Positions 4,424 to 34,025 of a stretch of 64,000 nt of DNA are shown piece after piece. Made by a program: the position numbers and the translations under genes. Numbering within the stretch: the stretch's first letter is position 1; every line of letters begins with the position of its first letter. The notes below the pieces were generated by a model. The model made no database searches. It was given only the letters and a program-made list of their open reading frames with translations, and was not told the DNA's origin. Location: the NCBI GenBank assembly GCA_944385365.1, contig CALWWW010000003.1, positions 1 through 64,000 on the forward strand. The letters are read 5' to 3'. The DNA comes from an uncultured Oscillospiraceae bacterium. Lineage in GTDB: Bacteria; Bacillota; Clostridia; Oscillospirales; Oscillospiraceae.

Positions 4424-4683
4424 CCGGAAAAAGGTATTTTTCGCCGTGCCGGAATTTAATGCTTCTGTATTTCCAGTAATGCAATAGGGTAAAGAAAAGA
4501 AAGGAATTTTTGGGGAATCATACAAAGATTTTTCGACCAATTCTATGCTTTTTCTGTACGATTCATCCAAAACAGCCGCGGACCAGGGAAAAGCGAAACG
4601 GTGCGCCGTGTACCGGCGCGGTATAGTCAAATGATTTCCGTGCAAAAAAACCATATAATTTTTTCAGTTTTTCCAGATGGGAT

Positions 4684-4712
4684 TTGCGTTTTTGTCTCTG
4701 GTCTGGTATAAT
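4684..4712 (+). promoter_or_regulatory. sigma-A-like promoter of the phosphodiesterase gene
   Basis: TTGCGT (4684-4689), 17-base spacer, TATAAT (4707-4712), about 85 bases before the GTG start. The -10 is perfect; the -35 is weak. Confidence 0.55.
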
Positions 4713-4798
4713 TTGAAAGAAACACAAAGCGCGTTACATTGCTTCCCCGGCGGAGGGAAGCAATTCCTGTCATACAGGAAAAGAGAAGGGGTGATACC

Positions 4799-7684
4799 GT
4801 GAGACGAATCAAACAAATTCTGGGGCTTGTCCTGATTGCGTGCGTATGCATTTCCAGCACCGTGGCGGTACAGGCCAGACGGGGACAGAAGACTGTGGTT
4901 CGTGTGGGATTCCCCATCCAATATGGTATCTCCTATCTGGATGAGAACGGCAATTACGCCGGATATATGGTAGACTATCTGGAGCAGCTGAGCCTGTATA
5001 CCAACTGGGACTATGAATACGTCATGGTGGACGGGGACCTGAATACCCAGATTCTGACCCTCATGGAAATGCTGATGAACGGCGAGATCGACATGATGGG
5101 CACCATGAACCGCAGCCCCCAGCTGGAAGAGATGTTCCTGTATCCCAGCTACAGCTATGGCACCACCTATACGGCGCTGACGGTCCGGGAGGATTCCGCG
5201 TGGGTGGAAGACGATTACTCCAACTGGAATGGTATGAAAATCGCCACCTCCCGGGAGCAGACCCAGCGTATGGACCAGTTGGAGCAGTATGCCCAGCTCA
5301 ACGACTTTACCTATGAGACAGTGGAATACGATACCATTGCGGAGGCGCTGGAGGGCGTGTGCAAGGGCGAAGCCGACGCTACGCTGCAAGTGGATATTGC
5401 GATCATGGACAACTTCCGCAGCATCGCCCGGTTCTCTCCCACGCCGTACTATTTCGCGCTGTACCAGGAGAATTACCAGCTGCTGCAAACGCTCAATACA
5501 GCGTTGTATAACATGAATCGCGCCTATCCCCATCTGCAAACGGAGCTGTACGACGAGTATTTTTATTCCTATGACCGCTTTATGCTGTCGGAGGATGACA
5601 AACGGCACATTGCGGACCTGGGCACATTGAAGGTGGCGTTCTGCGACGGCAACGCGCCGCTCCAATACGTCAAAAACGGGGAAGTGGGCGGCATGGCCGC
5701 CATGTTCTTTGAGAACTTTGCGGACGCCACAGGGCTGCAATATGAACCGGTGATCGTGGATTCGTGCGCCCATGGCATCGAATTGATTGAGGCCGGAGAA
5801 GTGGATATCATCGCCTGTGCGGCCAGCACCTCCAGTTATATCGCCGTGGACGGTATTCAGTTCTCTCTGTCGTATTTCAGCGGCAGCAGTCTGCTGGTTT
5901 CCTCGCCTACGGCTACGGACCCGGCGGACTACGACACCCAGCGGTTCTATACCAATACGCAGCGGGTCCTCAACAGTCTGCGTAAGAACGAGATGGGATA
6001 TGCGCGTCTGGACGCCTATTCTGTCAACTATTATCTGCAGAAAAAGGTTCTGTATGATGAACTGAACGTGGATTGGTCCAGCAGCAAAAATGTCTCCTAC
6101 TGTGTGGGCATCACCAGTCAGGTCCCCAGTGAATTGCTGACGATTTTCAACCACTATATCAGCACCATTACCGATGTGGAAAGTCAGAGCATGTTCTACC
6201 GTGCCATGTCGGAGAAGGTGGAATATACCCCTGCCGAGTGGCTGTACGTGTATAAGGTCTATCTGATTGGAGCCGTTGTGGTGCTGGGGCTGGCGGTATG
6301 TCTCTATCTGCTCTACCGCAACGGCAAGAAGGCGCAGCACGAAATGGCGCTGACCCAGCAGCAGCTGGAACAGCTGTCCCGTTATGATGCGCTCACCGGC
6401 GCGTACAATGGCGGAGAATTCCGCAGCTTGTTGGGTTTGGCCTGTAAACAGAAGATTCCAATGGTGCTGGTGGCACTGAATCTGCGGAACTTTAAATACA
6501 TCAACGAGACGTATGGCTTGACCACGGCGGACAAGTTCCTATGCGGGATCAAGCGCTGTCTGGACAGCATCCAGCAGCCCGGCGAGTTTTTCTGCCGGCA
6601 ATCGGCGGATGTATTCTACCTTGCGCTGCGGGAGACAGAGCCGGAGCAGGCCATGGCTCGGATTGAGACGCTGCGAGACCGGATTCAGCAGACGGCAACC
6701 ACGCTGTTGGGCCAATATCCCGTTTCCATTTACTGCGGTATTGTCCAAACGGCGACGGCGCCGGAGCCGTTCTCCGCTTCGGCTAAACATAACTACATGA
6801 TGGCTGCCCTGGCCCAGGCCAAGAAGAGCAAGAAAGAGAACGTATGCGTGTATGATCAGGAGCTCCATAAGATCGAGCAGGTCCGTCTCTATGCGGAAAG
6901 CAATATGCACCGCGCCCTGGAGCAGGAGGAGTTCAAGTTGTATTTGCAGCCGAAAATTGATCTCAGCACCGGTTTGCTCATTGGCGCTGAAGCATTGGTT
7001 CGCTGGCAGACCCACGACCGGGGAATGCTGTTCCCCGACCAGTTTATCCCCCTGTTTGAAGAAAACGGATTCTGCGTCCAGCTGGACCTCTATATGGTAG
7101 AGCAGGCCTGTAAGCAGCTGCGGCGCTGGATGGACGAGGGCATGGCCCCCACCAATATCTCCGTCAATCAGACACGCCTGCTGTTTGCCAGTGAGGGTTA
7201 TGTGAAAAAGCTCCTGGCCATCACGGAAAAATACGATGTTTCGCCGCAATATATCACGCTGGAGATTCTGGAAAGCCTGGTTCTGGACCATGTGGACCAC
7301 ATCAACGCCTGTATTGAAGAGCTGCGTGCAGCTGGGTTCCGGATTTCCATGGACGATTTCGGCAGCGGTTACTCCTCACTGAATACCCTGGGACGGCTGA
7401 AAATCGATGAATTGAAGCTGGACCGGCTGTTCCTTATGGGAGCGGCCAAGGATACAGATGGCAGCCAGCGCAAGATTATGGCCTGTATTCTGGAGCTGGC
7501 CAAACAGCTGCATATCAGCACTGTGGCAGAGGGTGTAGAGACCCAGGAAAACGAACAGATGATGGTACAGCTCTGCTGCAATTACGGCCAGGGCTACTAC
7601 TACAGCCGTCCGCTGACCATAGAGGATTTTGAGCGGGACTTCCTGGCGCCCTATTCCCGCCATGTCCAGGCCGGTGTCCGCTGA
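4799..7684 (+). CDS. membrane c-di-GMP phosphodiesterase with two solute-binding sensor domains
   Basis: 961 aa from GTG at 4799 (AGAAGGGGTGAT just upstream). A signal-anchor (about residues 8-25) is followed by two tandem SBP_bac_3-type extracellular domains (about 34-255 and 278-480), a membrane helix (about 487-508), a GGDEF-like domain and an EAL domain. The GGDEF signature is degenerate (RQSADVF), so no cyclase activity is expected. The EAL domain keeps its motifs: EALVRW (731-736), VNQT, LEILES, DDFGSGYSSL, AEGVET and QGYYYSRPL. It should hydrolyse c-di-GMP in the cytoplasm in response to small ligands (amino-acid-like by family). It stands alone between hairpins. It resembles BvgS-type sensor architecture with an EAL output. 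Confidence 0.92.
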   Translation: MRRIKQILGLVLIACVCISSTVAVQARRGQKTVVRVGFPIQYGISYLDENGNYAGYMVDYLEQLSLYTNWDYEYVMVDGDLNTQILTLMEMLMNGEIDMMGTMNRSPQLEEMFLYPSYSYGTTYTALTVREDSAWVEDDYSNWNGMKIATSREQTQRMDQLEQYAQLNDFTYETVEYDTIAEALEGVCKGEADATLQVDIAIMDNFRSIARFSPTPYYFALYQENYQLLQTLNTALYNMNRAYPHLQTELYDEYFYSYDRFMLSEDDKRHIADLGTLKVAFCDGNAPLQYVKNGEVGGMAAMFFENFADATGLQYEPVIVDSCAHGIELIEAGEVDIIACAASTSSYIAVDGIQFSLSYFSGSSLLVSSPTATDPADYDTQRFYTNTQRVLNSLRKNEMGYARLDAYSVNYYLQKKVLYDELNVDWSSSKNVSYCVGITSQVPSELLTIFNHYISTITDVESQSMFYRAMSEKVEYTPAEWLYVYKVYLIGAVVVLGLAVCLYLLYRNGKKAQHEMALTQQQLEQLSRYDALTGAYNGGEFRSLLGLACKQKIPMVLVALNLRNFKYINETYGLTTADKFLCGIKRCLDSIQQPGEFFCRQSADVFYLALRETEPEQAMARIETLRDRIQQTATTLLGQYPVSIYCGIVQTATAPEPFSASAKHNYMMAALAQAKKSKKENVCVYDQELHKIEQVRLYAESNMHRALEQEEFKLYLQPKIDLSTGLLIGAEALVRWQTHDRGMLFPDQFIPLFEENGFCVQLDLYMVEQACKQLRRWMDEGMAPTNISVNQTRLLFASEGYVKKLLAITEKYDVSPQYITLEILESLVLDHVDHINACIEELRAAGFRISMDDFGSGYSSLNTLGRLKIDELKLDRLFLMGAAKDTDGSQRKIMACILELAKQLHISTVAEGVETQENEQMMVQLCCNYGQGYYYSRPLTIEDFERDFLAPYSRHVQAGVR

Positions 7685-7733
7685 GTTTGCGGTCTGACTG
7701 TGCGCAGTGTGATTCCAAAAGAATATCCAATCA

Positions 7734-7766
7734 ACGCCCCCGGTACGGAATCTGTACCGGGGGTGT
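7734..7766 (+). terminator. hairpin after the phosphodiesterase gene
   Basis: Stem of 13 bases (7734-7746 with 7754-7766, one G-U) and a 7-nt loop. No strong T-run follows, so termination is weak or aided by other factors. Confidence 0.5.
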
Positions 7767-7846
7767 TGCCGTGTGTAGGAACGCTGCTGTAAAAAACTAT
7801 GCGTTATCACAGAAAATTCAAAGAAACTTTTGTGGAATCCATGCGG

Positions 7847-7902
7847 TTGACATTTTGCAGAAGGAGGAGTATGGTTATAGCAACGTAATGCATACGTATT
7901 CA
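7847..7902 (+). promoter_or_regulatory. promoter with LacI-family operator (dehydrogenase/glycerate kinase operon)
   Basis: TTGACA (7847-7852), 17-base spacer, TATGGT (7870-7875), then the operator TGCATACGTATTCA at 7889-7902, just past the expected transcription start. The same geometry occurs before the LacI-family gene (operator beginning 14-15 bases after the -10). Confidence 0.75.
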
Positions 7903-7930
7903 CACCTGGATTTCAAAGGAGGATCTGCAA

Positions 7931-8893
7931 ATGAAAATCGTAGTTCTGGACGGGTATACGGAGAACCCCGGCGATCTCAGTTGGGGTGCGCTGGAAGCCC
8001 TGGGAGAATTGACCGTGTATGACCGTACCTCTCTGACCGACGAGGCGGAAATCATTGAACGCATTGGCGATGCCGAGGCGGTCTATACCAACAAGACGCC
8101 CATTACCCGGCGGGTGATCGACGCATGCCCCAAGATGGGCTTTATTGGCGTTCTGGCGACGGGATACAACGTGGTAGACTACGTCTATGCCAGAGAAAAG
8201 AACCTCCCCGTGTGCAATATTCCCACCTATGGCACGGCGGCGGTGGGACAGTTTGCCATTGCCATGCTGCTGGAAATCTGCCACCATGTGGCCCACCATT
8301 CCGACGCGGTGCACCAGGGCCGCTGGGAATCCAATGCCGACTGGTGCTTCTGGGACTATCCCCTCATTGAGCTGGCTGACAAGACCATGGGTATCATCGG
8401 ATTTGGCCGGATCGGCCAGCAGACAGGCCGTATTGCCAAGGCCATGGGTATGCAGATTCTGGCCTATGACAGCTTCGAGAACGACAGCGGCCGGGCCATC
8501 GGTACATATGTGGACCTGGACACGCTGCTTTCCCAATCGGATGTCATCGCTCTCCATTGCCCGCTGTTCCCGGAAACCCAGGGCATCATTAACCGGGAGA
8601 CCATTGCCAAAATGAAGGATGGGGTCATTCTTCTCAATAACAGCCGTGGCCCGCTGATTGTGGAGCAGGATTTGGCCGACGCACTCAACAGCGGCAAGGT
8701 TTATGCTGCTGGTCTGGACGTGGTATCCACAGAGCCCATCCGCGGAGATAACCCGCTGCTTCAGGCCAAAAACTGCATCATTACGCCCCATATTTCCTGG
8801 GCTCCCAAGGAGAGTCGCCAGCGGATTATGGATTGCGCTGTTTCCAATTTGCAGGCCTATCAAAACGGCGCACCGGTCAACGTGGTGAACTGA
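7931..8893 (+). CDS. D-2-hydroxyacid dehydrogenase (hydroxypyruvate/glyoxylate reductase type)
   Basis: 320 aa with the usual two-domain fold. The Rossmann motif is GFGRIGQQTG (about residues 157-166). The catalytic Arg is in NNSRGPLIVEQDL, the catalytic Glu in STEPI and the catalytic His in PHISWAP. The family reduces 2-keto acids with NAD(P)H; the adjacent glycerate kinase makes hydroxypyruvate or tartronate-type substrates giving D-glycerate likely. Start set by AAAGGAGGATCTGCAA before ATG. First gene of an operon with a LacI-type operator in its leader; the next gene starts 4 bases after the stop. Confidence 0.9.
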   Translation: MKIVVLDGYTENPGDLSWGALEALGELTVYDRTSLTDEAEIIERIGDAEAVYTNKTPITRRVIDACPKMGFIGVLATGYNVVDYVYAREKNLPVCNIPTYGTAAVGQFAIAMLLEICHHVAHHSDAVHQGRWESNADWCFWDYPLIELADKTMGIIGFGRIGQQTGRIAKAMGMQILAYDSFENDSGRAIGTYVDLDTLLSQSDVIALHCPLFPETQGIINRETIAKMKDGVILLNNSRGPLIVEQDLADALNSGKVYAAGLDVVSTEPIRGDNPLLQAKNCIITPHISWAPKESRQRIMDCAVSNLQAYQNGAPVNVVN

Positions 8894-8897
8894 GCCT

Positions 8898-10028
8898 ATG
8901 AAAAAAGTCATCGTCATTTCCGATTCCTTTAAAGGCTCTCTCAGCAGCAGCGCCATTGCCCGGACGGCCACGGAAGTCATACACGCCTTTTATCCGCAGT
9001 GTCAGGTAATCGGACTGCCGGTGGCCGATGGCGGTGAGGGGACCGTGGACTGCTTTCTGGAAGCCGTAGGCGGAGAACGGATTGCGGTTTCCGTCACCGG
9101 CCCCTGGGGGGAACCGGTGGAAGCATGTTATGGGCGAATTGGCGATACCGCGGTGGTGGAAATGGCCGCGGCTGCTGGGCTGCCCATGGTAGGGAACCGG
9201 CTGGACCCCTCGAAAACCACCACCTACGGCGTCGGCCAGCTGCTGCATCATGCGGTGGAGCATGGGGCCACGCATTTGATTCTGGGGCTGGGAGGCAGCG
9301 CCACCAACGACGGCGGCTGCGGTGCGGCTGCCGCTATGGGCGTGGTGTTCCGCGACAAAAACGGGCAATCCTTTGTGCCCGTAGGGGAGACCTTGGGAAA
9401 AATTGCATCCATTGACTGTACCGCGGCACGTGCGCTGCTGGAAGGCGTCATGGTAGAGGTGATGTGCGATATCGACAATCCTTTGTGCGGTCCCCAGGGC
9501 GCAGCGGCCATCTTTGGCCCCCAAAAGGGGGCAGATGCTCCTATGATTCAACAGCTGGACCGCAATCTGGGACACTTGGCCCGGTGTATCGAAACGGATT
9601 TGGGCATTGCAGTATCGCAATTGCCCGGTGCCGGAGCTGCTGGCGGCTTTGGCGCTGGAGCAGCTGCCTTTTTTGATGCCAAATTACGGCCAGGCATTGA
9701 AGTGGTTCTGGACCTGGTTCGCTTTGAGGAACAGCTGGACGGCTGCGATCTCGTATTGACCGGCGAAGGCCGCATGGATGGGCAAAGCCTGGGTGGTAAA
9801 GTGCCCATCGGCGTATCTCGCCGCGCCAAGAAAAAGCAGGTGCCGGTGGTAGCCATCGTCGGTGTGACCGGCCCGGGCGTGGAACCAGTCTATGACGAAG
9901 GGATCACAGCTGTCTTTTCGACCAATCGGCAGGCGCTGCCCTTTGCGGCGGTCCGGGAGCGGGGAGAGGACGACTACCGACGGGCTTTGACCGATCTCAT
10001 GCGGTATACTAAGGCCATTTCAGGATAA
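8898..10028 (+). CDS. glycerate kinase (GarK/GlxK family, glycerate 2-kinase)
   Basis: 376 aa, the family's usual length. It opens KKVIVISDSFKGSLSS, has ADGGEGT (about residue 43), GLGGSATNDGGCG and GEGRMDGQSLGGK, the conserved motifs of class II glycerate kinases. It phosphorylates D-glycerate with ATP, feeding 2-phosphoglycerate into lower glycolysis. Together with the dehydrogenase before it, it forms a ketoacid to D-glycerate to phosphoglycerate route. Stop at 10026-10028; two half-operators follow in the gap to the regulator gene. Confidence 0.93.
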   Translation: MKKVIVISDSFKGSLSSSAIARTATEVIHAFYPQCQVIGLPVADGGEGTVDCFLEAVGGERIAVSVTGPWGEPVEACYGRIGDTAVVEMAAAAGLPMVGNRLDPSKTTTYGVGQLLHHAVEHGATHLILGLGGSATNDGGCGAAAAMGVVFRDKNGQSFVPVGETLGKIASIDCTAARALLEGVMVEVMCDIDNPLCGPQGAAAIFGPQKGADAPMIQQLDRNLGHLARCIETDLGIAVSQLPGAGAAGGFGAGAAAFFDAKLRPGIEVVLDLVRFEEQLDGCDLVLTGEGRMDGQSLGGKVPIGVSRRAKKKQVPVVAIVGVTGPGVEPVYDEGITAVFSTNRQALPFAAVRERGEDDYRRALTDLMRYTKAISG

Positions 10029-10038
10029 CACACCGCAG

Positions 10039-10066
10039 GTATGCACGGGACAAACTGCAGTATGCA
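10039..10066. promoter_or_regulatory. two spaced half-operators GTATGCA
   Basis: GTATGCA occurs at 10039-10045 and 10060-10066, exactly 21 bases apart (two helical turns). It is the right half of the LacI-type operator seen at 11336-11349. Neither copy has a good left half, so binding would be weak or cooperative. Confidence 0.35.
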
Positions 10067-10154
10067 CACGGAGCATGAACTGCAAATGCATGGTGTCCAA
10101 CGCAATTTGGACAGAATAGACAAAATACAGCGTCAAATTACAGCAAAATGGCGA

Positions 10155-10211
10155 TTGACAAACGGATGGATGCTTAGTATGATAGGGCCATAAGAAATGC
10201 ATACGAATGCA
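10155..10211 (+). promoter_or_regulatory. lacI-family gene promoter with operator (autoregulation)
   Basis: TTGACA (10155-10160), 17 bases, TATGAT (10178-10183): a strong promoter. The operator TGCATACGAATGCA lies at 10198-10211, downstream of the predicted start, and is identical to the one at 11406-11419. The regulator therefore probably represses itself. Confidence 0.8.
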
Positions 10212-10229
10212 CGAGATGGAGGGAGACAC

Positions 10230-11273
10230 ATGGCTGGCAGCAAGAAATCTGCGGAGAGTACCGGCAATCGCCCGGCCACTTCCTCCGATGTGGCCCGACT
10301 GGCTAATGTATCCCAGTCCACGGTCTCCCGGGTGTTCAGCGATACCTGCAAGCTGTCCGATGAAACCCGGAAACGGGTTTTGGAGGCGGCCAAGCAGCTG
10401 GGCTATCGGCCCAACAAGATCGCCCGAAGCCTCGTGTCCAACCGCACCAATATCATCGGCATCATTGTGATGAACAACGAGAGCCCCTTCTACGCAACGC
10501 TGACCAATTTGATGATCACCGCTTGCAGGAAGTTCGGCTTCTGTTCCATGGTCATCCGCCAGACGCCGGGGGAGCAGGGCATCGATGCGGTGACCCGCGC
10601 CCTGGATTATCGGGTGGACGGCATTGTGGTGACCGCCATTGAGGACTCTGAAAGCGCCAGTGAAATCTGCCGCCAGTCCAGCGTGCCCCTGGTGCTGCTG
10701 AACCGCTATATCGCCGGGGCCGGTGTGGATTCCGTTTGCTGTGACAATCTGGAAGCAGGCAGTCTGGCAGCCCAATACCTGCTGGACAAGGGCCATCGCT
10801 CCATCGCCTGTCTCATGGGTGATGCGGCGGCTTCCACCACGCGGGACCGTCTCGCGGGACTCCGGTCCAAGGCGGAGGAGCGAAACGTCTCCATCGATTG
10901 GGTGGAGTACGGCAGCTATTCCTATGAAAGCGGCCGGGAGATGTGCCGGAAACTGCTGGCCGACGGCAAGCGGCCCGACGCCATCTTCTGTTCCGGTGAT
11001 ATCATCGCCTTTGGAGCCATGGACGTGCTGCGCTATGAGCTGGGGCTACGGGTTCCGGAGGATATCTCCGTCATGGGCTTTGACGACACGGCAGAGACGG
11101 CCTGGGCGTCTTACAATTTGACCACCATGCGGCAGCCCTATGAGGAATTGGTGGAAACAGCCTGTCAACTGCTGGTCCGACGGATTGAAGGCAAAGGCAG
11201 CGGTGTGGTCCGTTCGCTCCATGCCTGCCGGTTGGTGGAGCGCGGCTCGGTTCAATCATTGCAGCCGGAATAA
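10230..11273 (+). CDS. LacI-family transcriptional regulator
   Basis: 347 aa from ATG at 10230, chosen because GGAGGGAGACAC precedes it; the earlier in-frame ATG at 10197 lies inside the operator. The N-terminal helix-turn-helix reads SSDVARLANVSQSTVSRVF, with the hinge helix region GYRPNKIARSL at about residues 58-68. The periplasmic-binding-protein-like effector domain follows, ending near DISVMGFDDT and TMRQPYEEL. Operators before the dehydrogenase operon, before this gene, and before the chimeric dehydrogenase operon suggest one regulon. The effector is unknown; a sugar acid is a reasonable guess from the neighbours. Confidence 0.92.
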   Translation: MAGSKKSAESTGNRPATSSDVARLANVSQSTVSRVFSDTCKLSDETRKRVLEAAKQLGYRPNKIARSLVSNRTNIIGIIVMNNESPFYATLTNLMITACRKFGFCSMVIRQTPGEQGIDAVTRALDYRVDGIVVTAIEDSESASEICRQSSVPLVLLNRYIAGAGVDSVCCDNLEAGSLAAQYLLDKGHRSIACLMGDAAASTTRDRLAGLRSKAEERNVSIDWVEYGSYSYESGREMCRKLLADGKRPDAIFCSGDIIAFGAMDVLRYELGLRVPEDISVMGFDDTAETAWASYNLTTMRQPYEELVETACQLLVRRIEGKGSGVVRSLHACRLVERGSVQSLQPE

Positions 11274-11298
11274 CCGGCAGTATCAAACGAAAAAAGAA

Positions 11299-11317
11299 TC
11301 CCCTCCCGCTGGGAGGG
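11299..11317 (+). terminator. short GC hairpin after the LacI-family gene
   Basis: CCCCTCCC and GGGAGGGG pair around GCT. It lacks a T-run, so it is a modest terminator. Confidence 0.5.
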
Positions 11318-11335
11318 GTGTTCAAAGCAACAAAA

Positions 11336-11426
11336 TGACTACGTATGCATAAAGGAGCAAAATTTCTCCGGTCCCCGGAACGGGACATTATTTTTTTACG
11401 GTTTGTGCATACGAATGCATTATAAA
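11336..11426 (+). promoter_or_regulatory. tandem LacI-type operators and -10 element of the catabolic operon
   Basis: A diverged operator TGACTACGTATGCA (11336-11349) lies 70 bases before TGCATACGAATGCA (11406-11419), start to start. The second site abuts TATAAA (11421-11426), the likely -10. Two sites 70 bp apart could support looping repression. Confidence 0.65.
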
Positions 11427-11453
11427 AATGAGCGGAACAGGGAGGAGTTACTT

Positions 11454-12359
11454 ATGAAAGCGTTGGTAATGCGGGGGCCGGGGCAGTTCGGCATAGAGGA
11501 GGTCCCCAAGCCCGTCTGCGGCGACCGGGAGGTGCTGGTCCAGGTCAAGGCCGTGGCCATCTGCGGTTCCGACCCGGTGCTGCTGGCCGGCGGCAGCCTC
11601 AGCGACGGGCTGCCGGGAAGCCTGCCCCATATTGCGGGCCATGAGGGCGCTGGCATCATCGTCCAGTGCGGCAAGGATGTGAAAGGCTTTGCCGTCGGCG
11701 ACAGGGTAGCGGTGGAATCCCATCTGGGCTGCGGCTACTGCGAAAACTGTCAGGCCGGACGGTACAATCTGTGCCGCAACTTCGGCGATGTATCCGCCGG
11801 TCATAAGCAGCACGGCCTGGAACCCAATTCCATCTCCATGATTCCGCTGTTTGAAACTACCGACGCCATTGTCCACGGCGCGGAGCTGCTGGGACTGTGC
11901 CGCCGCATCGACGGCGTCCAGTTCGGCGCAGAGGATTTGACCAAGGAGATGGAAATTCCCCGGACCCTGGGCGGCGAGGAAATCCGGTATGCCCGGGAAC
12001 AGCTGATCTTTGCGGCCCGTGCCAACGGCGTGGATTCTCTGGATACGCCCTTTACAGACGTAAAGAATCTGGAAGCATTGGAACGGGATGTGGCCCAGGC
12101 CAAGGCCATGGGCTTCACAGGCAAGACGTGCATCCACCCCAGCCACATCGAGGCCATCCACCGGGCATTTACGCCCACGGAGGAAGAGGTGCGGCGGGCC
12201 CAGGGCATTGTGGCGGCCATGGAAGCCGCCGTGGCCGAGGGCAAGGGCGCTTGTATGTATGAAAATAAAATGGTGGACGCCCCCGTGGCGGAGCGGGCCA
12301 GAAAAATCGTGGAAAAGGCAGCCCGGATTCAGGCGGCTGTCGGTTCCCAACCGGCATAA
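11454..12359 (+). pseudogene. chimera: zinc alcohol dehydrogenase N-terminus joined in frame to a CitE-like lyase C-terminus
   Basis: 301 aa from ATG at 11454 (GGGAGGAGTTACTT before it). Residues 1-121 are the catalytic domain start of a medium-chain zinc dehydrogenase: CGSD, GHEGAG, then the structural-zinc cysteines GCGYCENCQAGRYNLC. From about residue 122 (LEPNSISMIPLFETTDA) the protein is the C-terminal half of an HpcH/HpaI aldolase-citrate lyase beta family protein: DTPFTDVKNLEAL, GFTGKTCIHPSHIEAI, TPTEEEVRRAQ. The NAD-binding domain of the dehydrogenase and the N-terminal half of the lyase barrel are missing, so neither activity is expected. This is an in-frame deletion join, or an assembly artefact. 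Confidence 0.85.
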
Positions 12360-12376
12360 ATAAAGGAGCGAGAACA

Positions 12377-14053
12377 ATGGAATACACCAACGAGCAGGTA
12401 CAGTATATCGACGGTCTCGTGCAGAGAGCCAGAGCCGCCATGGCACAGATTGAGGACTTGACCCAGGAGGATGTGCGCCGTATTGCCAAGGCTGTGGCCA
12501 AGCTGTCCTATGAGCGGGCCGAGGTCTGGTCCAACGCCCTGTTTACAGAAAACGGCGGCAGCGGTCGTCTGGAAAGCAAAATTGCCCAGCTGACCTCCCG
12601 GCCACTGGGTCTGGCCGCCCAGGTGGACGGCGTCAAGACTGTGGGCGTCATTGAAGAGGACCCCGACGGCTATCTGGTGAAGATTGCTAAGCCTCTGGGC
12701 GTCATTGCGTCCCTGGTTCCCATGACCGTCCCCACGGGTCTCGTGGCCTGTCAGACCATTTTCGGCCTGATGTCCAAGAACGCCATGATTTTCTCCCCCC
12801 ATCCCCGCACCAAGCAGGTGACCAACTTCGTGGTTAACGACCTGCGGGAGCTGCTGGACCGCATGGGCTATCCCAAGGACCTGCTGCAGTGCATTGAAAA
12901 GCCCTCCCTGGCCATGACCGATCTGGTCATGGAAAAGGCTGACTTTGTCATCGCCACCGGCGGTGCGGCCATGGTCAAGGCCGCCTATTCCTCCGGCACG
13001 CCTGCCTTCGGCGTCGGTGCGGGCAACTCCTGCTCCTTTGTGGACGATACTGCCGATCTGGCCAAGACCGCCGAGGGCATCCGTATGGCCGAGATGAACG
13101 ACTGGGGTTCCGGCTGCTCCACGGAAAACTCCGTCATGATCCACGAGGCTGTCTACGATCAGATGATCGAGTGCCTCAAGAAGGAAGGCGGCTACCTCTG
13201 CAATGCCGAGGAGAAGGAAAAGCTCATCAATACCATTTGGAAGAACGGAAAGCTCAATGTGGAAGCCATCATCCATACGCCTCAGCAGATTGCCAAGCTG
13301 GCCGGTTTCCCCGTGCCCGACGACTGCACCTTCCTCATGGCCGAGGAGTCTGTCTGCGACCATGAGCACATGATGGTGGAGGAGAAGCTGTCTCCTGTTA
13401 TCGCCGTGTGGAAGGTCAAGGATGTGGATGATGCCATCGATCTGGTCAACCGTATCCACGCCATTTCCGGCGCGGGCCACTCCTGCTCCATCCACAGCAC
13501 CAATTTTGCACTGATGATCCTTTTGGTTATGGTGCAGGTGATTCTGCGGTTCCTCTTTGAAAACGGTTTTTCCTGGGGCGAGGAAGTGGCCAGAATCCTT
13601 TTTGTGTGGATGGCCTTTTCCAGCTTCGGCTACCTGACCCGCAATGGCCGCCATGTTCGTGTGGGCTTTTTCACCGGTAAGCTGCCGGAATCGGCACAAA
13701 AGGTGGTCCTGGTGCTGTGTGACGTGCTGTTTCTGGTGTTCTCCGTGGTGGGGCTCCGGTCCAGCTGGTCTCTGTGCATGGACGCCATCCGGTTTGGCGA
13801 TGAACTGACTGCTATCCCCTGGAATTACAGCGTACTCTATTTTGCGGGCGTCCTGGGATTCCTGATGATGGCAATTCGGAATGTGCAGGTGCTGGTGTGG
13901 CGGCTGCGCAACCGGAAAGAATCCATGGCACGGTTTGAGAATTATGACGGCGTCTATTATCGCAATGCAAAAATCTGCTTTGCACCCAAGGAGCTGGATA
14001 CATTGGAACAGCTGGAACGGGTGGCGGAAGAAAAACTGGAGATGGGGGATTGA
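12377..14053 (+). pseudogene. chimera: acylating-type aldehyde dehydrogenase joined in frame to TRAP DctQ
   Basis: 558 aa. Residues 1 to about 374 are an aldehyde dehydrogenase of the acylating or sulfoacetaldehyde-dehydrogenase-like type: ATGGAAMVKAAYSSGTPAFG, GVGAGN, and catalytic Cys247 in GSGCSTENS. It ends at AISGAGHSCSIHS. From about residue 376 it becomes a TRAP small permease (ILLVMVQVILRFLFENGFSW, EEVARILFVWMAF, GRHVRVGFF), with three to four membrane helices and a hydrophilic tail. The dehydrogenase loses its C-terminal ~80 residues, DctQ loses its first segment, and no DctP binding protein remains. The promoter-proximal chimera at 11454 has the same kind of join. Confidence 0.85.
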
Positions 14054-14056
14054 AAT

Positions 14057-15346
14057 ATGGTATCAGCCGTTTTGTTTAGTTCATTGGTCGTGTTTCTGGT
14101 GCTCTCGCTGCCCATCGGCATCAGCATCGGTATGGCGGCCCTGTCCACCATCGGCCTGTGTGCGCCCATCAGCAATGAGACCTTTGTCCAGTCCATGATG
14201 CAGGGTCTTAACTCTTTTCCCTTGATGGCCGTGCCGCTGTTCACCTTTGCCGGTGAGGTCATGGGCAAGGGCGGCATCTCCGCCCGGCTGATCAATGCCG
14301 CCAAGGTGGTGTCCGGCCGCTGTACCGGCGGACTGGGCATTGTGACCATCATTACATCCCTGTTTTTCGCAGCCATCGCCGGTACCGGTTCGGCGGCTGT
14401 GGCGGCCATCGGCATCATTATGATTCCCACCATGGTCCGCCATGGATATGACAAGGGCTATGCCAGCGCATTGGTGGCCACCGCTGGTACCGTCGGCGTC
14501 ATCATCCCGCCCAGTGTGTGCATGGTGGTCTACGCCGTGGCTGCCGGTGCTTCCATCAACGGCCTGTTTATGGCCGGTGTGGTGCCGGGTCTGGTCATCG
14601 GCCTGGGATTGATTCTCTATGCGTACTTCTCTTCCAGAAAAAATGGTTACCGGGGCGATGAAAAACGGTACACCGGTCGGGAAATCCTGAAGATTTTTCT
14701 GGATGCTGTGCCCGGCCTGCTGATTCCGGTCATCATTCTGGGCGGAATCTACGGCGGACATTTCACCCCCACTGAAGCCGCCGCGGTGGCCGGTGTCTAC
14801 GGTGTGTTTGTCGGTGTTCTGGTCTATAAGGAAATCAAATGGTCGGACCTGTTCCATATCATGTATCGTTCGGTGCTGCTGTGCGCGCCGGTGCTCATCA
14901 TCATCGGCCTGTCTACGGGCTTTGGCCGTATTCTCACCATTGCCCAGATTCCCAGTCAGATCGCGGAAGCCATCCTGAGCCTGACCTCCAGCAAGTATTT
15001 GGTGCTGCTGCTCATCAATGTGCTGCTGCTGATTGTCGGTACCTTTATGGAGACCAACGCCGCCATCATCATCCTGACGCCTATCCTGCTGCCCATTGTC
15101 ACGGCCATGGGTGTGAACCCCATCCACTTCGGCGTTATCGTGGTTATGAATCTGTCCATCGGCTTTATCACGCCGCCCCTGGGCGCCAACCTCTTTATGG
15201 CCTGCCAGGTGGGCTCCATCTCCTTTGACAATCTGGTAAAGAAAATTTGGCCATGGATTGTCGTTATGATTGTGCTGCTCTTACTGGTAACGTATGTGGA
15301 GGGAATCTCCATGGCGCTGCCGCGGGCCTTGGGACTGGTTTCATAG
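14057..15346 (+). CDS. dctM: TRAP transporter large permease DctM
   Basis: 429 aa, full length for the family, with about 12 membrane helices. Motifs include GIGMAALSTIGLC-like N-terminal helices, GRCTGGLGIVTIITSLFFAAIAG, GTGSAAVAAIG, IIPPSVCMVVYA and a C-terminal IGFITPPLGANLF. DctM forms the Na+-driven transport channel for carboxylates or sulfonates with DctQ and a periplasmic DctP. It starts 3 bases after the chimeric ALDH/DctQ gene. Because DctQ is truncated and DctP absent here, the importer is incomplete unless subunits are encoded elsewhere. Confidence 0.95.
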   Translation: MVSAVLFSSLVVFLVLSLPIGISIGMAALSTIGLCAPISNETFVQSMMQGLNSFPLMAVPLFTFAGEVMGKGGISARLINAAKVVSGRCTGGLGIVTIITSLFFAAIAGTGSAAVAAIGIIMIPTMVRHGYDKGYASALVATAGTVGVIIPPSVCMVVYAVAAGASINGLFMAGVVPGLVIGLGLILYAYFSSRKNGYRGDEKRYTGREILKIFLDAVPGLLIPVIILGGIYGGHFTPTEAAAVAGVYGVFVGVLVYKEIKWSDLFHIMYRSVLLCAPVLIIIGLSTGFGRILTIAQIPSQIAEAILSLTSSKYLVLLLINVLLLIVGTFMETNAAIIILTPILLPIVTAMGVNPIHFGVIVVMNLSIGFITPPLGANLFMACQVGSISFDNLVKKIWPWIVVMIVLLLLVTYVEGISMALPRALGLVS

Positions 15347-15387
15347 CCCTGAACCGTATGAGCCTTCCAATTCCATACATATAACAG

Positions 15388-15439
15388 GCGCCGGGCCTCG
15401 GGTTCCTCCGATTTGTCGGATGGACCGGGGCCCGGCGTC
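15388..15439 (+). terminator. hairpin after the TRAP operon
   Basis: Arms at 15388-15402 and 15425-15439 (GGCGCCGGGCC type), with an inner stem TCCGA/TCGGA. No long T-run follows. Confidence 0.55.
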
Positions 15440-15470
15440 TGCTTGCGGATCAGGAAAGATAAGAATCGAC

Positions 15471-15505
15471 AGAGGGCATGACACCGGTAATGTGTCACGC
15501 CCTCT
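15471..15505 (-). terminator. hairpin downstream of folA
   Basis: AGAGGGCATGACAC (15471-15484) pairs with GTGTCACGCCCTCT (15492-15505) with one G-U. It lies in the convergent gap between dctM and folA and could serve either strand. Confidence 0.55.
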
Positions 15506-15543
15506 GTATCATGCGCTACTATATAATAATATGACTTATGGTG

Positions 15544-27072: not shown

Positions 27073-28230
27073 CTACGCCGCCAGCCTGTCCATCGCCGCC
27101 TTTGCGGAGGTGTAATCCGCATGAGCGTAATAGTTCAGCGTCATGGTGATATTGGAATGTCCCATGATGTACTGCAGGTCCTTGGGGTTCATCCCAGCGT
27201 GGGCGAGGCGGGTACAGAATGTATGGCGCATGGTATGGGGCGTGATGTTCGGCAGGGCTTCTTCTGGCTTGTGGTGCTTGTTGTACTTTCTGACAAGCCC
27301 CTGGAACATGCTCTCGTAACAGGACGCCGTTTTGGGAAGGCCGCTCTGGTTGAGGAACAGGAAGTTGGTGTAGCCTCCGATATTGACCGGGGCGGCCTTG
27401 CCTCTGTTCTTCACAGCACGCTTCAACGCCTGGTAGACCTTCTCGCTCATGGGGATATGCCGCGCACCCTTTTTGGTCTTGGGCTCGTCCACATAGTAGC
27501 CGAGCTCGCTGTCCTGCAGGAGCTGGTGGTCCACATAGATGCAGCGGTTTTCAAAATCCAGGTCCGTTGTCAGACCACACAGCTCGGAAACGCGGAGGCC
27601 GGTCCCCAGCAGAATGATGATCTCATCACAATACTTCCGGTAGACCGGGTCGCTGCCGGCGAAAGCCAGGAGGCGGTCCTCCTGCTCCTGGGTCAGCGCG
27701 GCTTTTTCCTCCGTGTCATCCTCCAGGACATCGGCTATGGCGAAGTTGAACGGGTTTTTGCGGATGCAGTCATCCTCAATCGCCGTGTAGAAGGCCGCCT
27801 TCAAAGACCGTTTCCAGTTGCTGATGGTCTTGTAGGCGTAGCCCTTCTCGCTCATCCTGATGGCCCATTCCTTGGCGTCCGACAGCTTCACGCTGTCAAT
27901 GCTCCGGGACCCCAGGGGGTCCTCTTTCAGAACGGACATCAGGTATTCCCGGCCCTTCTCGGTGCTCCGCTTGACATTCTTCCGATGGCTGTTCTGCCGG
28001 GCGTAAAGCTGGCAGACCGTCATCTTCTTGCCGATGGTGTCGATCCCATCGTTAATGTCACGCAGGATCTCCTTCACCTTCTCACGGAGCGAAACATCGT
28101 CCCGCTTGCCCGTGGGGGTCTTGTCGGTGGGCACCAGTTTCCAGGCATACACGAATTGAGTTTTACCGCAGGCGTCCGTGTACTTGTAAGCGTGGGCTTT
28201 TTGCTTCTGGAGAGCATCGACCGTCTGCAC
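27073..28230 (-). pseudogene. Tn916-type tyrosine integrase with abnormal N-terminus
   Basis: 385 aa from GTG at 28230. From AYKYTDACGKTQFVYAWK onward it matches Tn916-type integrases (arm-binding domain, core-binding domain, catalytic domain). The catalytic set is visible: Arg in GTGLRVSELCGL, HTMRHTF, GHSNI, and the nucleophile Tyr in TLNYYAHAD. The ~20-25 residues that normally precede this point, including the usual start, are replaced by unrelated sequence (VQTVDALQKQ), and no good ribosome site is seen. No excisionase, relaxase or other element gene is nearby. It is probably a stranded remnant that may have lost expression or arm binding. Confidence 0.75.
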
Positions 28231-30918: not shown

Positions 30919-32334
30919 ATGCGAATCGAGCACGATTTCCTCGGCCAGATGGAGCTGGAGGATCAGGCGTATTACGGCATACAGACGGTGCGGGGCGTGC
31001 AGAACTCCAACGTCACCGGCCACACCTACGGTGAGGACGGCATGAAAGTGGTCCGGGCCATGGCCCGCATCAAAAAGGCGGCGGCTCTAGCCAATGAGCA
31101 GATCGGCGCCCTGGATGAAAAGCGGGCCTGGGCCATCGGCGTGGCAGCCGATGAGGTTCTGGCCGGAAAACTGGACGATCAGTTCCCGGTGGACATGGTC
31201 ACCGGCGGCGGCGTCAGCATCCATATGAACCTCAACGAGGTTCTGGCCCACCGGGCTTCCATGCTGCTGGACGGCATGGAAGTGCATCCCAATACCCATG
31301 TGAACATGGGACAGTCCACCAATGATGTGCTGCCCTCGGCCATGCTGCTGACCACCCACAGTCTCATTCTGGAAGTGGTCAAGGCCGTGGATGTGCTGGC
31401 GGAAGCCGTGGCCGAACGGGCCGAGGCGTTCAAAGATGTGGTCAAGCTGGGCCGCACCTGTCTCCAGGATGCCATGCCCGTCACCGTGGGACAGGAGCTG
31501 ACCGGCTGGCACAGCTTCCTGCTGCGGCACCGGCAGCTGCTGCTGTATCGGGCAGACGAATGTCTGGAGCTGCCCCTGGGCGGCACGGCTGTGGGCACCG
31601 GCGTCGGCGCCATGCCCGGCTATGTGGAAGCGGTGTACCCGCACCTGAAAACGCTGACCGGCTACAACGTCAAGCCCGCTGCCAACTTCTTCGACGCCAT
31701 GCAGTTTGCCGACGAGTATGTGCACGTTTCGGCCACGCTGAAATCTCTGGCCGCCGGTGTGTCCAAGATGGCTTCGGACTTGCGTATCCTGTCTTCCGGT
31801 CCCCGCGGCGGCTTCGGAGAGCTGCGGCTGCCGGCGGTGCTGCCCGGTTCCTCCATCATGCCCGGCAAGATGAATCCCATTCTGCCGGAGCTGATGATCG
31901 AGATTTATCTGCTGGTCCACGGCAACGACGCGTCTGTGACCATGGCCGCAGAGCGGGGAGAGCTGGACCTCAATGTGTGGGAAGCTGTCATCACCAAGTG
32001 CATTCTGGAGTCCTGCCGGCTTCTGACCCGCGGCCTGCCCCGGTTCGCCCGGGACTGCATCGCGGGCCTGGAGGTCAACGAGGCCCATTGCCACCGTCAG
32101 GCATCGACTTCCGCCGCCATTGCCATGGTCATTTCCGCCGTCTTTGGATATGAGACCGGCTCGGCGGTGGCCCGCAAGGCATTGGAAGAGAACAAGACGG
32201 TGGCGGAGGTGGCCGTGGAACAGGGACTCATGGATGCCGATACTGCCCGGCAACTTCTGGACCCGTCCCTTATGACCCACGGCGATTCGATGGCAGACGC
32301 CATCGCAAAACTGCGCAAAGCAGTGAAGCAATAA
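30919..32334 (+). CDS. aspA: aspartate ammonia-lyase
   Basis: 471 aa of the aspartase/fumarase superfamily. MRIEHDFLGQMELEDQAYYGIQT is a typical aspartase opening, and the superfamily signature GSSIMPGKMNP is at about 310-320. Aspartase converts L-aspartate to fumarate and ammonia. The segment GGGVSIHMNLNEVLAHRA fits aspartase better than fumarase C. AGAGGTGGATACCC precedes the ATG. It is the first gene of an operon with the BCCT transporter. Confidence 0.88.
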   Translation: MRIEHDFLGQMELEDQAYYGIQTVRGVQNSNVTGHTYGEDGMKVVRAMARIKKAAALANEQIGALDEKRAWAIGVAADEVLAGKLDDQFPVDMVTGGGVSIHMNLNEVLAHRASMLLDGMEVHPNTHVNMGQSTNDVLPSAMLLTTHSLILEVVKAVDVLAEAVAERAEAFKDVVKLGRTCLQDAMPVTVGQELTGWHSFLLRHRQLLLYRADECLELPLGGTAVGTGVGAMPGYVEAVYPHLKTLTGYNVKPAANFFDAMQFADEYVHVSATLKSLAAGVSKMASDLRILSSGPRGGFGELRLPAVLPGSSIMPGKMNPILPELMIEIYLLVHGNDASVTMAAERGELDLNVWEAVITKCILESCRLLTRGLPRFARDCIAGLEVNEAHCHRQASTSAAIAMVISAVFGYETGSAVARKALEENKTVAEVAVEQGLMDADTARQLLDPSLMTHGDSMADAIAKLRKAVKQ

Positions 32335-32388
32335 CCCCTGTATCCCAACCGGCTGACGGGCCGGATGATGAGAGAGGAGAGTTTATTT

Positions 32389-34025
32389 GTGAAAAAGAAA
32401 ACCCAACTGCGGCCAGCGGTGCTGCTGGTTCCGTCCGCGATTTTTATTGTGGTCATCATTTTGTCCCTGGTGATCGGTCAGCCCTTTACCGACACGCTGA
32501 CCAAGGGCTTTGAGGTCCTGCAATACAACCTGGGCTGGGTGGTCAGCCTGACCATGTTGTTGTTTGTGGCCTTCGTTGCCGTGGTCATCTTCCACCCCAT
32601 CGGCAAGATCAAGCTGGGCGGCCCCAACGCCAAGCCCAAAATGTCCTATTGGCAGTGGTTCGTCGTTTCCCTCTGCGCCGGCATCGGCACTGGCGTCGTG
32701 TTCTGGGGCGCCGTTGAGCCTCTGGTCTTCACCTTTGAGCCCGCTCCCAGCCTGCATTTGGAGCCGGGCAGCAATGAGGCCGTCATCTGGGCCATGCGTA
32801 CCACCTCATGCACTGGACCCTGACCCCCTACGCCATTTATGTGGCCTTCGGTCTGGTTCTGGCCTATGTCATCCATAATATGCGCAAGCCCTACAACGTC
32901 TCTTCCGGCCTGATTCCGGTTGTGGGTGAGAAGCTGGCCAAGGGCAAGCTGGGCACCTTCGTCGATATGCTGACCTGCTTCGCCCTCATCGGCGGCGTCG
33001 CCGGTTCCCTGGGCTACGGCATCCTGCAGCTGTCCACCGGTATGGATTTGGTCTTCGGCATTGAGCCCACCAAGTTCGTCTACTTCATCGTGGCTGTGGC
33101 CATCTTCGCGGCCTACACCTCCACCGCCATCAGCGGCCTGAACCGCGATATCATGTGGCTGGGCGACAAGAACGCCTGGTTCTATGTGATTCTGCTGTTG
33201 TTCCTCCTGATCTGCGGCCCCGCTTCCTACATCTTTAACCTGCTGACCCAGTCTTTGGGCTCCTTCTTCAACAACTTCGTCGAGTCCATGACCTTCACCG
33301 CTCCGTTCCCCGACAGTGAGCTGTGGCCCCAGTGGTGGGACCAGTACTGGTGGGTTGACTGGCTCAGCTACGGTCCTCTGATGGGTCTGTTCTTCGTCCG
33401 CCTGGGCTATGGCCGTACCCTCCGCGAGTTCGTGGTCGTCAACTGGCTCATGCCCTGCCTGTTCGGCTTCATCTGGTTTGCCATCTTCGGCGGCACCGTC
33501 CTGTATCAGCAGTTCTACGGCGGCGTGGACTACTACTCCATCTACCTGGAAAAGGGCATGGAGGCCATGACGCTGGAAGCCTTCAACAGTGTGCCCTTCG
33601 CACCGGTCATTAAGGCACTTATGCTGTTGATTATCGCTGTGTCTTTTATCACCCTGGCTAACTCCATGATTTCCACCATCGCTTCCATGAGCATCAAGAA
33701 CAGCTCCGAGAACGAGGAAGCTCCCTTCGGCCTGAAGCTGTTCTGGGGCATCATCATCGCTGCTGCCGCCCTGGTGTTCACCCTGGCTGGTGGTATCGAC
33801 GGCGTCAAGATGGTCAAGACCTTCGCCGGTTTCCCCATTGTGTTCCTGGGCATCGTTATGATTGTAGGCTTTATTGTCTATATGGCCAAGCGTCCCAGAG
33901 ACGCGGCGGGCAACTTTGAATATGAAGAAGCCATCGCCAACGCGCCCGACAACGGCGAACCCTGTGCGCCTCCGTCTCCCACCATGGAGAAGCTGAAGGC
34001 TTGGATTCATAGCAAGAAGAAATAA
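32389..34025 (+). pseudogene. BCCT-family transporter, broken by a one-base frameshift
   Basis: The first 140 residues from GTG 32389 (GAGAGGAGAG upstream) are the start of a betaine-choline-carnitine transporter: PSAIFIVVIILSLVIG, GIGTGVVFWGAVEPL, EAVIWAMRTT. The frame then ends at 32821-32823. The remaining ~400 residues continue in another frame from MHWTLTPYAIYVAFG at 32808. One missing base near 32806 (T-T-C-ATG would read TTFMHW) accounts for the break. About 12 helices are otherwise intact. BCCT proteins import quaternary amines with Na+ or H+. It may be a sequencing error; if real, the transporter is inactive. Confidence 0.88.

Follow-up and report, generated by a model that had tools for sequence, protein, structure and literature searches.

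Background

Deletion-derived gene fusions occur in decaying bacterial operons. These fusions, the TRAP transporters of the DctPQM type and the acylating aldehyde dehydrogenases (ALDHs), the latter represented by the SauS model NF047625, the EutH_ACDH/AdhE-type models and the acetylating acetaldehyde dehydrogenase of PDB entry 5j78, are the described systems closest to the locus reported here. A fusion of ALDH with DctQ was not found as a topic in titles and abstract openings, and a search on chimeric gene fusions in metagenome-assembled genomes (MAGs) yielded one paper, on nitrite reductase.

The locus lies in the window, i.e., the whole 64,000-nucleotide stretch of DNA analysed, whose assembly (G000) comprises 64 contigs and 2.58 Mb, with an estimated completeness of 91.3% and contamination of 1.1%. 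Comparisons were made with the sister species Candidatus Avoscillospira avistercoris (G002; ~170 contigs, 82% complete), whose contig is also designated L025, and with two intact ALDHs, one from L024 (a MAG labelled Anaerotruncus sp.) and one from G379. The locus resembles deletion-derived fusions in that truncated genes are joined without evident homology, intermediate genes appear to be lost, the window flanks are intact and the sister lineage is broken independently, but it differs in that relaxed selection has not been seen in the window so far and both of its joins happen to be in frame.

The ALDH-DctQ reading frame and its joint

Positions 12377–14053 of the forward strand form one uninterrupted frame of 558 codons, in which an ALDH is followed by DctQ, and Pfam confirmed the in-frame junction claimed by the earlier note by placing Aldedh at residues 6–269 (E 3.7e-24) and DctQ at residues 380–510 (E 1.9e-27) of the same ORF. 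The break, which had been put at about residue 374, is real but lies at residue 376/377, that is, at 13504/13505, because both intact ALDHs cease to align at residue 376–377 and the DNA alignment with the sister species opens at 13505 (90.6% identity across 8.5 kb). The first part is thus an acylating-type ALDH of residues 1–376 (12377–13504, +), assigned by Pfam, NCBIfam and comparison with the intact relatives, and the second is the TRAP small permease DctQ without its N-terminal start (13505–14053, +), carried in the ALDH frame and assigned by Pfam and the G002 alignment.

Past residue 376, the ALDH of L024 reads on with GAGGAGCA and that of G379 with GAAACGCA, and in the DctQ proxy TATTTTTC precedes TTTGC at the joint. 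Side-by-side comparison revealed no word common to these ALDH and DctQ proxies; since they come from other species, the true parents could have shared a few bases at the joint. A repeat search found no long direct or inverted repeat across 13504/13505. A k-mer assembler joins sequences only through a shared word, so that the proxies speak against assembly collapse through a repeat, one of the causes suggested earlier. A broader form of that idea, in which the joint is false or a minority form (the assembler having made a chimera, or having picked one variant from a strain-mixed sample) and most cells hold the full operon, is lowered by the same evidence and by flanks that are collinear with related genomes across most of the window, but it still stands as an unlikely yet serious alternative.

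The truncated enzyme and the TRAP genes

Compared with both intact relatives, the window ALDH is missing ~102 C-terminal residues. The intact enzyme of L024 has 478 residues and shares 82% amino acid identity with the window part, and the long-form ALDH of G379 shares 74%. As a member of the ALDH superfamily, the window copy retains the cysteine motif in a domain without those C-terminal residues: Cys247, highlighted in the earlier note, sits within GSGCSTEN and is presumed to be the catalytic cysteine. SauS (NF047625) is the best NCBIfam model both for the fusion (336 bits) and for the ALDH of L024 (421 bits), but both fall below the cut-off of 600 bits, and an identity as acylating sulfoacetaldehyde dehydrogenase was set aside for this reason. 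The match of the L024 enzyme to 5j78 (E 2e-86), together with the best model, supports the likeness to acylating ALDHs, from which the window copy differs in its missing C-terminus.

An active fusion protein, in which a cytosolic ALDH is tethered to a TRAP permease and retained by selection, would be compatible with the open frame, with the ribosome-binding-like AAAGGAG ahead of its start, with the first hydrophobic segment of DctQ being mostly retained (by eye), with the low dN/dS and with an AlphaFold model in which mean pLDDT was mostly 77–98 per ten-residue block over residues 1–380. Nevertheless, pLDDT drops to 64 in block 241–250, which contains Cys247, the enzyme is without the C-terminal residues that both intact relatives have, no DctP was found in the assembly, the neighbouring ADH and CitE genes are cut too, and among 60 genomes, own included, a match across both ALDH and DctQ parts occurred in the own genome only. 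In this model, built on a 34-row alignment, the DctQ half has low confidence, and no conclusion is drawn from it. We regard a functional fusion as very improbable, and the product is probably inactive.

Few relatives of the ALDH piece were recovered. Its own genome was the only match among 300 family genomes at E <= 1e-80 and among 394 order-level genomes at E <= 1e-100, and a search of seven genomes of the genus with the whole L024 ALDH revealed no second copy in G000, where it hit the ALDH of the window and otherwise just paralogues with <=35% identity. At the DNA level, some stretch of 11300–15400 had a match (E <= 1e-20) in 26 of the 400 genomes of the family, but besides the own genome only G379 covered most of the ALDH piece (73%, 1068 bases), the remaining ones matching in short stretches or in the DctQM part alone. 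Composition gave nothing clear in favour of a foreign origin (GC 0.589 versus 0.572 for the window).

The fusion is followed by an intact TRAP large permease, DctM (14057–15346, +; Pfam, NCBIfam). Window DctQ and DctM match the Pfam and NCBIfam models of TRAP DctPQM systems, and the YiaM and YiaN models (NF007374 and NF011634) also match them, both below cut-off, but the locus differs from such systems in having an ALDH in place of the DctQ start and in the missing DctP. With the 323-aa DctP of G002 as query, no homologue was found in G000 at E <= 0.001, and because the assembly is 91.3% complete, true absence is unproven; the same query matched three of five genomes, namely G002, G379 and that of L024. 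This agrees with the earlier observation that DctP is missing beside DctQ and DctM. In G002 DctP ends 57 bp upstream of the listed DctQ ORF, which supports the proposal that it was lost in the same event as the DctQ start. With DctM present, the DctQ start gone and DctP not found, a functional TRAP transporter in the window is improbable.

The upstream chimera and the putative LacI regulon

The gene upstream was also said to be chimeric, and Pfam and NCBIfam bear this out: the N-terminal third of a zinc alcohol dehydrogenase (ADH; 11454–11816, +; Pfam ADH_N), the rest of which is missing, runs in frame into the C-terminal half of a CitE/HpcH-HpaI lyase (11817–12359, +), whose N-terminal half is missing and which corresponds to positions 112–283 of 288 in model TIGR01588. 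The joint, at ~11805–11817, is approximate, no close intact parent having been found. The earlier note held that two in-frame joins in neighbouring genes were unlikely by chance, an argument that the counts weaken. The chance of both being in frame is 1/9, so that the frame needs no special cause; when the out-of-frame ADH join of G002 (below) is counted, the chance of at least two of three in frame is 0.26, and with a BCCT-family deletion added, that of at least three of four is 0.11. Of the systematic cause then proposed, the repetition of lesions within the operon, sister species included, holds, but the reading frame lends it little.

Further upstream, a 2-hydroxyacid dehydrogenase (7931–8893, +; Pfam 2-Hacid_dh_C; 320 aa long in G000 as in G002), a glycerate kinase (8898–10028, +; Pfam Gly_kinase, NCBIfam TIGR00045) and a LacI-family regulator (10197–11273, +) are all intact. 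A LacI-type operator-like palindrome, TGCATACGTATTCA, with two mismatches, precedes the dehydrogenase gene (7889–7902), another lies at the start of the lacI gene (10198–10211), and an exact copy, TGCATACGAATGCA, also present in G002, precedes the ADH fragment (11406–11419). Counting both strands, TGCATACGAATGCA or close forms gave seven matches at four places in the window, where shuffles expect 0.59; there is a weaker match at 4837, and G002 has extra operator-like copies after its MtaA-like gene and ahead of DctP. Judging from these sites, the LacI protein of the window may bind the palindromes, and the catabolic operon is probably LacI-controlled. The enzyme set (2-hydroxyacid dehydrogenase, glycerate kinase, CitE-type lyase and acylating-type ALDH) together with the TRAP importer suggests the use of a small carboxylic acid.

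Nine neighbours are equal in full length between G000 and G002: the 2-hydroxyacid dehydrogenase, glycerate kinase, LacI, DctM, DHFR, ThyA and the next three. Synonymous divergence (dS) between the two was 0.80–0.85 for the 2-hydroxyacid dehydrogenase and glycerate kinase (7931–10028) but 0.26–0.53 in every other gene compared, a hint that this pair has recombined or been replaced.

The same operon in the sister species and the genus

The sister species shares the neighbours on both sides, with the 2-hydroxyacid dehydrogenase, glycerate kinase and LacI genes followed later by DctM, DHFR and ThyA (the last two by eye), but its ADH gene is cut earlier, at the equivalent of window base 11662, and is joined out of frame to an MtaA/UroD-type gene (ADH ATG at L025:3540, MtaA-like frame from 3688). 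The best NCBIfam model for the MtaA-like protein is TIGR01463 (65 bits, below the cut-off of 235), and the protein is without ~28 N-terminal residues that its relative in G398 has. DctP of G002 has a good ribosome-binding-like sequence and, by eye, a terminator-like hairpin ahead of it; also by eye, a signal peptide is not evident and the frame at the start of DctQ appears interrupted, both readings being made without an intact copy of the same gene. The retrieved G002 contig has neither CitE nor ALDH.

Among 400 family genomes, the MtaA-like piece and DctP of G002, used as one query, found two at E <= 1e-60, namely G002 and G398 (MtaA-like part only), and the corresponding DNA is whole in G002 alone among seven genus genomes; G000 has in common with it the 350-bp promoter and ADH piece, plus a 55-base trace match only. 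In another genus member, G006, the island from the 2-hydroxyacid dehydrogenase to DctM (7686–15541) is missing between its flanks: no more than ~300 bp separate a counterpart of the window gene at 4629–7685 (by eye of GGDEF/EAL type) from the DHFR block. In the other four genus members (80–90% complete), the ADH-to-DctM part gave at most short matches of ~100 bases or less. Relatives of the 2-hydroxyacid dehydrogenase–glycerate kinase pair (72–75% DNA identity) lie on other contigs of G006, G001 and G004.

The search for an ALDH-DctP-DctQ-DctM order in relatives, suggested in the earlier note, was answered in part. Both parts of the fusion occur as separate longer genes, ALDH in L024 and G379 and DctQ in G002 (with its start apparently frame-broken), and DctP and DctQ are contiguous in G002, but no relative was found in which ALDH precedes DctP-DctQ, and none had the complete order proposed here, the family- and order-level searches yielding partial relatives only. 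In L024, DctQ-DctM comes first and then ALDH, and in G379 ALDH adjoins a CitE gene (28% identical to the window piece) away from TRAP genes; since no relative has the full order and these two are arranged otherwise, the ancestral order is a guess.

Flanking sequence and a second transport locus

The window flanks align mostly with G006 (blocks summing to 50.6 kb) and G002 (43.7 kb), with small overlaps; the alignment breaks at 24.4, 26.8–28.2 and 29.6–29.9 kb against G006 and at 32.6–33.4 kb against G002. Indel lists of the aligned blocks were judged by eye on uncurated gene calls. A Tn916-type tyrosine integrase gene (27073–28230, −) adjoins a breakpoint at 28193, where G006 carries a Lyase_1 gene of 428 aa that matches the window at its end alone.

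Programmed excision or phase variation, by which a recombinase would remove and restore the missing segment, had been named as a possible systematic cause, and the integrase gene and the recurrence of lesions in one operon of two species could be read in its favour. Nevertheless, more than 13 kb separate the joint from the integrase, which has a breakpoint of its own beside it, no recombinase was found among the scanned neighbour genes (Pfam scan and ORF list by eye), the joints differ between G000 and G002, and the missing parts were not found elsewhere in the assembly. The lack of a common word in the proxies and of a long repeat at the joint disfavours excision as it does repeat collapse, and we consider programmed excision the least probable of the readings discussed here.

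A BCCT-family transporter gene (32365–34025) is frameshifted near 32808 in the window, has lost 254 codons in frame in G002, with TAT at either edge of the deletion, and has an intact frame of 553 aa in G006; transport-gene lesions thus recur at another locus of G000 and G002, being different in each. The dN/dS of the BCCT pieces was 0.019–0.023 for the window versus G006, 0.084 for G002 versus G006 and 0.068 for the window versus G002, so that constraint is seen on these pieces as well. In addition, the Lyase_1/FumaraseC_C gene at 30919–32334 is one codon short in a GGC run near 31207–31214, a codon that both G002 and G006 have.

Selection and age of the lesions

Relaxed selection was not seen in any piece tested by dN/dS. 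Between G000 and G002, dN/dS was 0.040 for DctM, 0.081 for the DctQ remnant, 0.045 for LacI, 0.060 for ADH (69 shared codons) and 0.005–0.087 for seven other neighbour genes; the ALDH piece gave 0.084 against L024 and 0.098 against G379, compared with 0.104 between these two. The remaining parts of the fusion thus lack the relaxation expected of a scar, which fits only a very recent event, and because dN/dS is low throughout, real lesions must be very recent in both lineages. As a rough bound, if evolution after the lesion was neutral, the dead period would be at most ~4–8% of the path between the species, and at least five lesions would fall within it, two in G000 and three in G002, two of the latter three resting on the reading of the DctP and DctQ starts. 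In both sequenced populations the transporter has probably ceased to function, and only very recently.

Low dN/dS in broken genes strains the deletion reading, and for this reason the assembly alternative is retained. Several lesions in one operon of two fragmented assemblies, clustered in a short period, would also fit wrong or minority variants. The source study of G002 (PMC8035907) describes MegaHIT assembly with k from 25 to 127, per sample except for one co-assembled project, to which G002 may belong.

Proposed origin of the fusion and its meaning

On balance, we lean towards the reading that the 558-aa ORF is a deletion scar, left when one catabolic operon, probably under LacI control, recently suffered independent deletions. 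The ancestral island may have held ADH, CitE, acylating ALDH and MtaA-like genes under one LacI regulator, with a second unit, DctP-DctQ-DctM, under the same regulator. In the window lineage, one deletion would have fused ADH with CitE, whereas another, beginning at ALDH codon 376 and ending shortly after the start of DctQ, would have removed the end of ALDH together with DctP; the two would be independent events, joined with little or no homology. The sister species would carry other lesions of the same operon, i.e., the ADH-MtaA join, a DctP in which no signal peptide is evident, and an apparent frame break at the start of DctQ.

More tentatively, and with a good deal of doubt, inactivation of the LacI/TRAP regulon could be repeatedly favoured: strains with low-homology deletions would rise within each gut species while intact strains persist, so that the sequenced populations carry different fresh lesions in genes otherwise still looking fully constrained. 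A direct precedent was not found in the literature on within-host loss of function.

The fusion protein itself is most likely a scar of an ordinary kind, and databases should not list the 558-aa ORF as a new enzyme-transporter with two domains. Should the lesions prove unreal, they would indicate that assemblies can hold convincing in-frame chimeras. What is unexpected is that one regulon has been broken in parallel, and apparently very recently, in two sister species. Provided that the lesions are real, sister gut species would have lost one catabolic regulon in parallel and very recently, and the question would become what nutrient, or what toxic substrate, drives this loss.
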